A stretch of 64,000 nt of DNA from Anaerolineales bacterium (GTDB taxonomy: Bacteria; Chloroflexota; Anaerolineae; Anaerolineales; Villigracilaceae): assembly GCA_020060235.1 (NCBI GenBank), contig JAGVAO010000061.1, positions 1 through 64,000 of the forward strand, written 5' to 3'. A program made the position numbers and the translations under genes. Each line of letters opens with the position of its first letter. Positions within the stretch are counted from its first letter, which is position 1. Below the pieces are notes generated by a model. That model ran no database searches. It worked only from the letters and a program-made list of their open reading frames with translations, and was not told the origin of the DNA. Below are positions 31,996-37,216 of this stretch, piece after piece.

Positions 31996-32080
31996 TGGTG
32001 CCGAAGGAGGGAATCGAACCCTCACTCCTTACGGAACACGATTTTGAGTCGTGCGCGTCTGCCAGTTCCGCCACTCCGGC
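31996..32080 (-). tRNA. tRNA-Leu(CAA), CCA encoded
   Basis: gccggagtggcggaactggcagacgcgcacgactcaaaatcgtgttccgtaaggagtgagggttcgattccctccttcggcacca. Acceptor stem, T-loop, anticodon loop ctCAAaa and long variable arm are present. Confidence 0.95.
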
Positions 32081-33185: not shown

Positions 33186-33773
33186 TTGTTCGACCCGCTG
33201 GCCTACCTGCTCGAAAATATCTCCTGGTACGACCCCATCTACAACATTGCCTGGGTGCTGTTCATGGTCTATGCTTTAACCCTGCCGCCCCTGCTGTTGT
33301 GGATTTTCAAACTGCCGCTGCTGCGCGATGTGCTGCCGTCACGCCCCTGGGCTTTCCAGCGCGAGACCTATGCCCACCTGCTCGGGGCGGCGTTTGTCAT
33401 TTTCTCGTTTCGACTGATTCCGTACTGGATTTTCAACGACAAGATGCTGCACTTCCTGGGCGGCGGGATAGCCATTGCGCTGGTCTATGAGTATTTCGCG
33501 CTCAACTTCGACCTGGCCCGGGGGCGCGGAATCGTCAGCCTGCGCCCGCTGGCGGGGAACAAACCCGCGCTGCTGGCAGCCAACCTGCTCCTGCTGGTCT
33601 TGTTTGCCTCGTTTTTCAGCGTCTTTTCAGAGTTGTATGAATTCGTCTCAAAATATGTAATGGGCTACCAGTTTGACTCGAGCGGCTTCGACACCTGGAT
33701 GGATATCCTGGCCAACCTGGCCGGGGCGCTGGTCGGTTACCTGGGAATCTGGTTATGGAAAGCAAACAGGTGA
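33186..33773 (+). CDS. Hypothetical multi-pass membrane protein (TTG start)
   Basis: Hydrophobic ORF coupled to ychF; ELYEFVSKYVMGYQFDSSGFDTWMDILANLAGALVGY. Confidence 0.7.
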   Translation: MFDPLAYLLENISWYDPIYNIAWVLFMVYALTLPPLLLWIFKLPLLRDVLPSRPWAFQRETYAHLLGAAFVIFSFRLIPYWIFNDKMLHFLGGGIAIALVYEYFALNFDLARGRGIVSLRPLAGNKPALLAANLLLLVLFASFFSVFSELYEFVSKYVMGYQFDSSGFDTWMDILANLAGALVGYLGIWLWKANR

Positions 33774-33800
33774 CAGTCACGTTGAACGTGACTGTCACCT
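33768..33800. repeat. Palindrome AGGTGACAGTCACGTT-G-AACGTGACTGTCACCT
   Basis: Perfect 16-bp arms overlapping the TGA stop of the preceding gene. Confidence 0.9.
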
Positions 33801-33907
33801 GCGGTCTGAAAATACGGGTGGTTTGTTTCACGTTAGCTCCGAGAGAACGTAAAAACCACATCTCAAATAGAAAACAGGAAGTATGGCGCAAATAATTCAC
33901 CGCTTTT

Positions 33908-34267
33908 TTACAAAAGCGCCGCAATGTCAAAAGCAACCCAACCCTTTAGCGCTATTTTTTCAACATCCGCTAAAAACATATCAATAGATCGGTTATGAAC
34001 ATCCGTAGGGGTTTCTTGACAAAATTCAATTGAATCAAATTCATGAAAACAATGATCGTATGTTGTCATTTTGGATGCGAGAAACAGAAAAACTTCAGGA
34101 ATTCCAATCTGACTTGCAACAAATTGACTGTCTGGCAAAAAAGCGCGCAATAAACGCGCCTCTATGTTTGGTGGGGAAATCTCTTTGGGGTTGGAAAATA
34201 CCACTTCCCCCCATTTTTTGAAATTTGCACCGTCTCGGTAAAGGTAATTGAAACGAACGCATTTCAT
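33908..34267 (-). CDS. Hypothetical protein, partner of the HNH gene
   Basis: 119 aa ORF beginning 3 nt after the HNH stop; no recognised domain. Confidence 0.6.
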   Translation of the reverse strand: MKCVRFNYLYRDGANFKKWGEVVFSNPKEISPPNIEARLLRAFLPDSQFVASQIGIPEVFLFLASKMTTYDHCFHEFDSIEFCQETPTDVHNRSIDMFLADVEKIALKGWVAFDIAALL

Positions 34268-34270
34268 CTG

Positions 34271-35032
34271 CTATGCTCGAAAAATATTATTATTGTGATA
34301 GCTCAAGAATTCATTCTGCGGCTTAAACCGCGTCGGCATATGAATTTGAGCATTGTCGTAGCGTAGCAAAAAATCTTGAACTGCAGAGTTCGATGTGTTT
34401 TTTATTGCAGGAGAAATTTTCACTCGAAAATCGGGTGTTACAGTCATCAAACCACGGTCAAATGCTCGATCATGGATGACATTCAGGCATAGACCATTTT
34501 GTGGATTAACGCGATTTTGAGTATCAATAGACCACGGCACAATATGACTTGCATTCAAAAGCTCTGGCAAGCTCAAACCGGTAATACAACAACGATAATC
34601 ATAAGCGGCAAGAACGGCCTTGCGAAAAAAACTCTGATTTACCCGTGTTTTCACAACCGATTCACGCTCTTTTCCTTCCGGCAAATCAGACAGAGATATT
34701 TCTGATACTACTTCAACCGGCTTTCCAGCCAGGTTTGCCAGCAACTTTTCACTCTCAAAACTTAATTGCTCCCAATTTTGATTAAATTCATTCCAAATTT
34801 CAGTGTCAAGACGACTACCATGTGTAGCTCCCGCAATTTGTCTCTCTTTTAAAGTGGGATCAAGGCTTGCAAAGTTTGCCAATTTCCAAGATACGGCCGA
34901 AGTAGTACGCCCAATTATTTCTGCCAGCTTAATAATTTCAGGATTATGAATGTGGATTCGCCCGAATGGGGTTTTGCAATAAAGATTGAAGGCAAGAATC
35001 AACTCATTACGAGTCCAATTTTTCTTTGTCAT
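34271..35032 (-). CDS. HNH endonuclease (HNH_2-like restriction nuclease)
   Basis: YDYRCCITGLSLPELLNASHIVPWSID...NPQNGLCLNVIHDRAFDRGLMTV; N-terminal NELILAFNLYCKTPFGRIHIHNPEI. Confidence 0.85.
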   Translation of the reverse strand: MTKKNWTRNELILAFNLYCKTPFGRIHIHNPEIIKLAEIIGRTTSAVSWKLANFASLDPTLKERQIAGATHGSRLDTEIWNEFNQNWEQLSFESEKLLANLAGKPVEVVSEISLSDLPEGKERESVVKTRVNQSFFRKAVLAAYDYRCCITGLSLPELLNASHIVPWSIDTQNRVNPQNGLCLNVIHDRAFDRGLMTVTPDFRVKISPAIKNTSNSAVQDFLLRYDNAQIHMPTRFKPQNEFLSYHNNNIFRA

Positions 35033-35317
35033 CGAATTTCTCTCTTCAACAATCGATCAAAATAACACAAACTTTTGTTCATTTTACATCATGTGGTGTT
35101 TGTCATGGTCAATATCTTATTCTCCGGTCGTCTATAGGTCTACGGACTATGAGTCACAATGCGAGATTTAATAAAAACACAACAACAAGAATCCAACTAA
35201 AATTGTTGCAGTTGTGTTTTGTGCTAATAAGCACTCATTTTGTCGGCAAGTTGGCCGGGCTGTAAGGCCGGAAGTTGCACCCCGATAGGACTCCCGCCTG
35301 AAAAGAATATCAAAACA

Positions 35318-35348
35318 GGAGACAGCCACTTTGAAAGTGACTGTCCCC
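35318..35348. repeat. Imperfect palindrome GGAGACAGCCACTTT-G-AAAGTGACTGTCCCC related to 33768-33800
   Basis: Shares GACAG(T/C)CAC.TT ... AA.GTGACTGTC with the other element. Confidence 0.8.
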
Positions 35349-35455
35349 AATACCATCCGTCCCCAACCCTGGCAAACGACGCCAAAAAAGGGACTTTCCC
35401 CGAATCCCTGATAAAATTAGGCAAACGTCTAACCCACACTTAAAGGAGTATTTCT

Positions 35456-37216
35456 ATGACCGTTAGCCTTTCCCCCTGGAGCCTGACCGACCTTTTCCCG
35501 GCCCCCGACGCGCCGGAACTGGAATCCGCTTTTGGGGAACTTGAAAAACAGGTTGCGGAATTCGAACAGTTCCGCACTGAGTTAAATCCCGGCATGGACG
35601 TGGAACGCTTCATGGAAATCCTCGAGCATTCCGAAAAGACCACTCGCCTGGCACACCGCGTCTACGGCTTTGCCGGGCTGATGTTCTCTGCCGACACCCA
35701 GAACCAGACCGCCATGGCGCTCATGGGACGCGTGCAGCAGTTCTTTGCCGAAATGGAAAACCGCGCCCTGTTCTTCAGCCTGTGGTGGAAAGACCTCGAC
35801 GACGCCAGCGTCAAACGCTTCCTCGATGTTTCGGGCGATTATCGGTATTACCTCGAAGCCCTGCGCCTGCAAAAGCCGCACACCCTGAGCGAGCCGGAAG
35901 AAAAGATTGTCAACCTGAAAAACGTCACCGGGGTCGGGGCATTGACCAACCTGTACGACTCGATTACCAACCGCTACACCTTCAAACTCGAAGTGGATGG
36001 CGAAACGAAAGAACTGACTCGCGGCGAGTTGATGTCCTACGTCCGCATGGCCGACCCCGACCTGCGCGCCGCTGCCTACCGCGAACTGTACCGCGTCTAC
36101 GGCGACGACGGCCCCATCCTCGGGCAGATGTACCAGACCGTCGTCCGCGACTGGCGAAACGAGAACGTCAGCCTGCGCAAACACGCCAACCCCATCGCCG
36201 CCCGCAACCTGGGCAACGATATTCCCGATGAAGCCGTCGACGCGCTGCTGGATGTCGCCCAGAAGAACGCGGTCGTCTTCCAGCGCTTCTTCAAAATCAA
36301 GGCCCGCCTGCTCGGCATGGACAAGTTGCGCCGCTACGATGTCTACGCCCCGGTCAGCAAATCGAGCAAGGAATATGCCTTCGACAAGGCCGCCCAAATG
36401 GTGCTCGAATCGTTCTCCGATTTCCACCCCGATTTCGGCAAACAGGCCAAACGCGTTTTTGACGATAATCACCTCGACAGTGAAGTCCGCAAGGGAAAAC
36501 GCGGCGGCGCGTTCTGCTGGACGGTCGAACCCGCCCTGACGCCCTGGGTGCTGGTCAACTACCAGGGCAAAGGCGACGACGTTGCCACCCTGGCCCACGA
36601 ACTCGGTCACGCCATCCACTCGATGATGGCCGAGGAGCATACCGCCTTTACCCAGCATTCCTGCCTGCCGCTGGCCGAAACCGCCTCCACCTTCGGCGAG
36701 ATGATGCTCATCGACCGCCTGATGGCCGAGGAAAAAGACCCGGCCGTGCGGCGCGACATGCTCTTCCGCCAGATTGACGACAACTACGCCACCATCATGC
36801 GCCAGTCCTTCTTCGCCCTGTTCGAGAAACAGGCCCACGAGATGGTGCAGAACAACGCCTCCGTGGACGACCTGGCCGCGGCTTACATGGAGAATCTCAA
36901 AATCCAGTTTGGCGACGCGGTCGAAGTCAGCGACGAGTTCAAGTGGGAGTGGGTCAGCATCCCGCACATCTACCACACCCCCTTCTACGTCTATGCCTAC
37001 GCCTTCGGGCAACTGCTGGTGCTGGCGCTCTACAAACAGTTCAAGGCCGAGGGCGAATCGTTCAAGCCCAAATATATGAAACTGCTGGCCGCGGGCGGCT
37101 CTGAATCGCCCGAAAAGATTCTCAAAGAATCCGGCATCGACATCCGCAGCGCGGCCTTCTGGCAGGGCGGCTTCGACGTGCTGGCGGGCATGGTGGACGA
37201 ACTCGAAAAACTGTAA
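35456..37216 (+). CDS. M3 family oligoendopeptidase (PepF-like)
   Basis: DVATLAHELGHAIHSMMAEEHTAF (HExxH), ETASTFGEMMLIDRL. Confidence 0.93.
   Translation: MTVSLSPWSLTDLFPAPDAPELESAFGELEKQVAEFEQFRTELNPGMDVERFMEILEHSEKTTRLAHRVYGFAGLMFSADTQNQTAMALMGRVQQFFAEMENRALFFSLWWKDLDDASVKRFLDVSGDYRYYLEALRLQKPHTLSEPEEKIVNLKNVTGVGALTNLYDSITNRYTFKLEVDGETKELTRGELMSYVRMADPDLRAAAYRELYRVYGDDGPILGQMYQTVVRDWRNENVSLRKHANPIAARNLGNDIPDEAVDALLDVAQKNAVVFQRFFKIKARLLGMDKLRRYDVYAPVSKSSKEYAFDKAAQMVLESFSDFHPDFGKQAKRVFDDNHLDSEVRKGKRGGAFCWTVEPALTPWVLVNYQGKGDDVATLAHELGHAIHSMMAEEHTAFTQHSCLPLAETASTFGEMMLIDRLMAEEKDPAVRRDMLFRQIDDNYATIMRQSFFALFEKQAHEMVQNNASVDDLAAAYMENLKIQFGDAVEVSDEFKWEWVSIPHIYHTPFYVYAYAFGQLLVLALYKQFKAEGESFKPKYMKLLAAGGSESPEKILKESGIDIRSAAFWQGGFDVLAGMVDELEKL

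Follow-up and report, generated by a model that had tools for sequence, protein, structure and literature searches.

An AT-rich island in an Anaerolineales genome pairs an HNH_2 nuclease with a small acidic protein of an apparently undescribed, restriction-linked family

What is a nuclease gene doing beside a small gene of no recognisable family, in a short block of AT-rich DNA? The question is raised by a 64,000-nt stretch of DNA (the window), contig C105 of a 4.0-Mb draft genome that is 96.9% complete and has its kin in Chloroflexota. The initial annotation had described an AT-richer island of about 1.5 kb between ychF and pepF, bracketed by two related palindromes and holding an HNH_2-like endonuclease gene with an unknown 119-aa ORF 3 nt downstream, and had taken the whole for a horizontally acquired two-gene defence or restriction cassette. 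The island itself is readily recovered: at positions 33802-35317 the GC content is 0.400, whereas the window averages 0.583, and 0 of 625 sliding 1.5-kb windows across the 64 kb are as low. By nucleotide comparison with same-genus relatives, from which it is absent, the island spans 33766-35404 (~1.6 kb; GC 0.40 vs 0.58 window-wide). Similarity to the same-genus genome G401 stops at 33765, and similarity before pepF in G400, G401 and G403 resumes at ~35405, so the block is private to this strain within the sample. Not only in the window but also in 7/7 Chloroflexota relatives examined, the paired genes have a higher AT content than their own flanks.

The placement of the island holds on its right side, where pepF, an oligopeptidase F-like (Peptidase_M3) gene, lies at 35456-37216 on the plus strand. 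The true left neighbour is not ychF but a VanZ-like ORF of 195 aa that follows it (33186-33773, plus strand; a sub-threshold match, with an 83% ortholog in G401). A tRNA-Leu (CAA) lies directly upstream of ychF at 31996-32080 on the minus strand and is overlapped by the mechanical start of the ychF ORF. The empty-site alleles that the initial annotation had looked to were sought between ychF and pepF in relatives (G401, G402 and G407), and no clean one was found because the flanks are themselves rearranged: G401 has ychF and the VanZ-like ORF in common with the window and diverges immediately after, and G402 has the order ychF, lipoprotein-like ORF, pepF. In G407 a nucleotidyltransferase-like and HEPN-like gene pair (L193, 3280-4036) sits inside the same interval, and defence-type genes may therefore use the ychF-pepF interval as a small site of insertion. 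A similar nucleotidyltransferase/HEPN-like pair adjoins the nuclease pair at another locus, L111.

Both palindromes are present where they had been described, but their reading as REP-like recombination or insertion ends did not survive. Palindrome 1 (33767-33801) is perfect, CAGGTGACAGTCACGTT-G-AACGTGACTGTCACCTG, its 17-nt arms separated by a single nucleotide; the stop codon of the VanZ-like ORF (TGA, 33771-33773) falls within it, and the folding energy of its RNA form is -29 to -31 kcal/mol (z -6.5 to -7.1). Palindrome 2 (35318-35348), between the divergent HNH and pepF genes, is a degenerate copy of the same hairpin that is imperfect as DNA, its A/C mismatches becoming G-U pairs on the minus strand to give a 14-pair stem. 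T-rich tails follow both copies on the minus strand. The core pattern GTGACAGTCA-N-TGACTGTCAC, for which 0.00 matches are expected by chance, occurs in 31/61 genomes of the family at 1 to 27 copies each, whereas a reversed control pattern has no match in these genomes. The core GTGACAGTCA/TGACTGTCAC is invariant and two further pairs covary, one at the outer edge and one in the inner stem (28/30 and 29/30 paired vs 10.3 and 13.2 expected). A stop codon lies within 40 bp of 26/38 copies, with 11 copies between convergent and 2 between divergent genes, a distribution that suits a terminator-like or REP-like element; a role as a binding site is a further candidate. The hairpin is thus dispersed at gene 3' ends across the family, and it is absent from 8/8 related loci that carry the gene pair; it is therefore not an end of the cassette.

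The window genome has other copies of the hairpin on contigs C8, C175, C188 and C250, and in some genomes, G436 among them, more widely spaced core pairs and clusters occur as well. With respect to REP elements and their RAYT transposases, the palindromes are dispersed, conserved and intergenic (the 31/61 genomes above), and a RAYT search of the window genome found one Y1_Tnp domain, in the C-terminal part of a 548-aa protein (L019, contig C196, 1465-3111, minus strand). This IS200-type transposase domain follows an apparent response-regulator-type N-terminus, and the protein is possibly a domesticated transposase.

The larger gene of the island (34271-35032, minus strand) encodes a 253-aa protein made of a helical N-terminal domain and a C-terminal HNH domain. 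The call of an HNH_2-like endonuclease is supported by Pfam (HNH_2, E=4.9e-14) and by an intact motif, with H163, N179 and H187 all present. PADLOC model PDLC04132 matches the protein over its full length (3.5e-100) and PDLC03546, labelled 'Type II restriction enzyme', matches it at 7.4e-44; both models are also matched by 33/33 aligned members of the HNH family. As judged from these matches, the gene would be the restriction endonuclease gene of a type II restriction-modification (R-M) system. In an AlphaFold2 model (pLDDT 91.6) the N-terminal half is entirely helical and the HNH domain comes after it; the only solved structures that Foldseek finds significantly or near-significantly similar to this model are VcaM4I (6yex, E=3e-6) and TagI (6ghs, E=4.6e-3). 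No modified-base sensor domain of the SRA or EVE kind was recognised, Pfam finding HNH_2 only and the N-terminal half being helical. The protein is basic, with a pI of 8.9. EcoBLMcrX was considered as a relative and rejected, since PMC5487053 describes it as having no relation to McrA, a member of the HNH family.

The second gene (33908-34267, minus strand), 3 nt downstream of the first, encodes the 119-aa protein, and its description as an ORF of no known family is upheld by searches of Pfam, NCBIfam and PADLOC, none of which returned a match. For 73 aligned members of what we call the 119 family, NCBIfam, PADLOC and PHROGs contain no convincing family, and Pfam gives a few scattered matches (best 4.7e-4, three members) that are inconsistent across the family. 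The window protein is modelled with confidence (pLDDT 94.0, pTM 0.87) and has no significant fold match in PDB or BFVD; its best viral fold match, to a protein annotated as an antirestriction protein, is non-significant (E=0.12). Single-protein scans of viral contigs confirmed no close relative. The family is acidic, with a mean pI of 4.9 and a mean charge of -9 (window copy pI 5.3), and the window copy retains every invariant residue (F6, Y8, Y10, R11, D12, N15, K17, F49, D71 and E76).

How closely the two genes belong together can be read from relatives of the small protein. Scanning its alignment against 84,980 species genomes gave 214 relatives, of which the best 80 were analysed. The same HNH family adjoins 37 of these 80, a biased fraction, the 80 having been kept for their similarity to the query, and the hosts include eight phyla (Chloroflexota, Acidobacteriota, Kryptoniota, Chlorobiota, Bacteroidota, Pseudomonadota, Thermodesulfobacteriota and Verrucomicrobiota). 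Among the 37, the gap between the genes is <=24 nt in 25 of the 32 pairs in which it could be measured, and the gene order is reversed at L117 and L120. Distances among the paired HNH proteins track those among their 119-type partners (Mantel r=0.77, 0/5000 permutations), as expected for joint travel, with shared host history contributing too. An apparent HNH-119 fusion at L115 was rejected, as the HNH C-terminus is replaced there, as after a frameshift.

Starting instead from the nuclease, in 400 Chloroflexota genomes sampled regardless of the small protein, a 119-type neighbour is absent at 14/14 other full-length HNH homologues; pairing is therefore not obligate, and the HNH protein does not depend on the 119-aa protein. 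Consistent with this, the HNH tree nests solitary genes (L047-L049) in the paired clade, requires 7 changes of the paired/solitary label and includes a vertically kept solitary lineage in family f35, so the small gene has evidently been gained and lost and the nuclease is viable alone. The consistent pairing that the initial annotation anticipated thus stands as a frequent association and fails as a universal one, and the unpaired distribution that it held would count against the cassette is found in part, among the 14 solitary homologues.

The remaining neighbours of the 119 family point to restriction. A restriction-type gene lies within ~1 kb at about 60/64 loci outside a mobile-element group described below, by our own reading of the neighbourhoods. 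In several proteobacteria the operon order is C5-methyltransferase, HNH, 119-like, EcoRII-C, and at three loci (L135, L171 and L185) methyltransferase and HNH are fused, so that the relatives of the HNH family appear to be nuclease parts of cytosine-C5 R-M operons. Members without an HNH partner adjoin or lie near RE_HpaII, RE_BsaWI, NOV_C, SAD_SRA-HNH, a DUF3427/PLD helicase or an SLFN-g3 helicase, and further neighbours include an AAA_5 ATPase, Vsr and an HNH_2 protein with a different N-terminus (L109); a similarity of that N-terminus to the DUF3427 domain was too weak to keep. At one conserved site in Mucilaginibacter the small gene is kept although its neighbour varies, being HNH in two species (L151 and L172) and a DUF3427/PLD helicase in another (L139). 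In the phage-derived locus L022 the HNH gene adjoins a C5-methyltransferase-like ORF and an apparent GHKL ATPase, assigned without profile confirmation. We also note a Neisseria gonorrhoeae locus (L020; NZ_CP119142.1, from PLSDB) at which pheS-like and pheT-like genes enclose an HNH homologue, 46% identical, and next to it a Vsr-like gene and an apparently broken C5-methyltransferase gene; at 2.17 Mb, this entry is apparently a chromosome labelled as a plasmid.

Given the pairing at 37 of the best 80 loci, the restriction proteins beside most of the others and the co-divergence, the proposal of a horizontally acquired restriction-type cassette holds up, as does that of the 119-aa protein as a genuine partner in it. 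As an acquired restriction cassette the island looks ordinary, but the family of its partner protein is undescribed, widespread and linked to restriction.

The initial annotation saw no methyltransferase gene adjacent to the pair, and this is true well beyond the neighbourhood: a genome-wide search, which covered C5 families, found no C5-methyltransferase in the 96.9%-complete genome (PF00145; the control gave a signal in 10/14). EcoRII likewise has no match there, an absence that carries little weight because the control genomes also gave nothing. Several other Anaerolineales carry the intact pair with no C5-methyltransferase within 5 kb. With no C5-methyltransferase in its genome, the window pair is probably a methyltransferase-less offshoot of an R-M module.

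On balance we favour, with modest confidence, the reading that the pair is a small, horizontally acquired restriction module in which an HNH_2 nuclease is joined by a modulating small acidic protein and has a type IV-like trigger. The nuclease would cut incoming DNA, and the 119-aa protein, made from the same message, would limit or tune it; most likely, as the charges of the two proteins suggest, the acidic protein moderates the basic nuclease. The window version would have lost, or never had, a methyltransferase, and since it has none the nuclease is most likely triggered only by some foreign feature, modified DNA being an example. The same is suggested by the persistence of the HNH gene, for which neither methyltransferase nor obligate partner is needed. 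A counterpoint comes from the C5-methyltransferase operons, whose HNH proteins cannot depend on 5mC at the same site in any simple way.

How the small protein would act is constrained by the company it keeps. Since one small family occurs with so many unrelated nucleases, it more probably acts on DNA or on a shared step than by binding tightly to one fold; direct-binding inhibition of so many nuclease folds by one small protein is unlikely. Since it lies beside many unrelated restriction enzymes in distant bacteria, the family may be an overlooked general restriction accessory, exchanged among unrelated nucleases and acting via a shared target (DNA or a common step), a suggestion we offer tentatively. 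Accessory proteins common to unrelated restriction systems are, to our knowledge, rare; Vsr and C proteins are examples. The family is compact and confidently folded yet absent from Pfam, NCBIfam, PADLOC and PHROGs, so that its description would improve the annotation of defence systems, and it may reveal how host DNA is spared by nucleases that come without a methyltransferase.

The same breadth of nuclease partners leaves two other accounts of the small protein as serious rivals. It could be a positive subunit or targeting factor that recognises DNA or its modification for several restriction nucleases, and not an inhibitor; we think this somewhat unlikely. Neighbours from many unrelated nuclease families suit a protein that acts on DNA and not on the nuclease, and six of the invariant residues are polar (R11, D12, N15, K17, D71 and E76), but an acidic family is unusual among DNA-binding subunits, HNH homologues occur without it, and no DNA-binding fold was recognised in PDB or BFVD.

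The second of these rivals arises from the standalone genes, which make up 16 of the best 80 relatives, all in Chloroflexota, where RadC-like and DUF6094 genes join them in a conserved cluster that is apparently a mobile element. Contig C160 of the window genome carries a standalone paralogue of this kind, 41% identical (L061); the other cluster loci are L137, L141-L143, L146, L147, L149, L157, L160, L164, L168, L177, L179, L180, L183 and L186, and the cluster, conserved in Anaerolineales, also has AbrB/PIN-like genes, its DUF6094 protein being a methyltransferase. The 119 family could thus be an anti-restriction protein of mobile elements, captured beside restriction genes and a passenger in the window. 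The antirestriction annotation of its top viral fold match would fit, but that match is not significant, and the tight spacing and co-divergence with HNH argue against a passenger, so that we consider this origin improbable.

An addiction module, toxin-antitoxin or nuclease-immunity, that does not restrict foreign DNA is less probable still. The arrangement, a nuclease gene with a small acidic partner encoded only a few bases downstream, has the form of one, and the G407 interval holds its nucleotidyltransferase-HEPN-like pair; however, restriction is indicated by the methyltransferase fusions and operons and by neighbours such as EcoRII, HpaII and Vsr, and Chloroflexota lineages have kept solitary HNH genes with no small partner. 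That the pair is a decayed, non-functional leftover of an R-M operon, as the missing C5-methyltransferase, the (weak) EcoRII absence and the apparently broken methyltransferase gene beside the gonococcal relative might suggest, is very doubtful, as both ORFs are intact with all invariant residues kept and several Anaerolineales have the same intact pair with no C5-methyltransferase within 5 kb.

Returning to the favoured reading, a methyltransferase-less restriction module, we compared the pair with known systems. According to PMC2292703, in whose consulted passages the 119 family was not found, MORC and paraMORC operons bring together cytosine methylases, Vsr and nucleases of the HNH or EcoRII type; L022, with its HNH gene beside a C5-methyltransferase-like ORF and an apparent GHKL ATPase, resembles them, whereas no GHKL gene lies beside the window pair. 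The phosphorothioate-dependent HNH enzymes of NF045808 (PMC7461809) show weak whole-protein similarity over residues 67-252 of the window nuclease (E=2.4e-20), but the score of 72.8 bits is below the curated cut-off of 180 and the first 66 residues are uncovered. VcaM4I (EVE-HNH) and TagI (SRA-HNH) are modification-dependent nucleases (PMC7897488, PMC6212794) that have a C-terminal HNH nuclease domain like that of the window protein, whose N-terminal half is all-helical and has no EVE or SRA domain. PADLOC models PDLC04132 and PDLC03546 both match the nuclease, the former over its full length, but are silent on the 119-aa partner, and the window copy lacks a methyltransferase. EcoRII-type C5 R-M operons differ in that the window has no methyltransferase or EcoRII nearby, and no library searched annotates the 119-like gene as part of them; the likeness lies in the relatives, where C5-methyltransferase, HNH, 119-like and EcoRII-C genes form a single operon.
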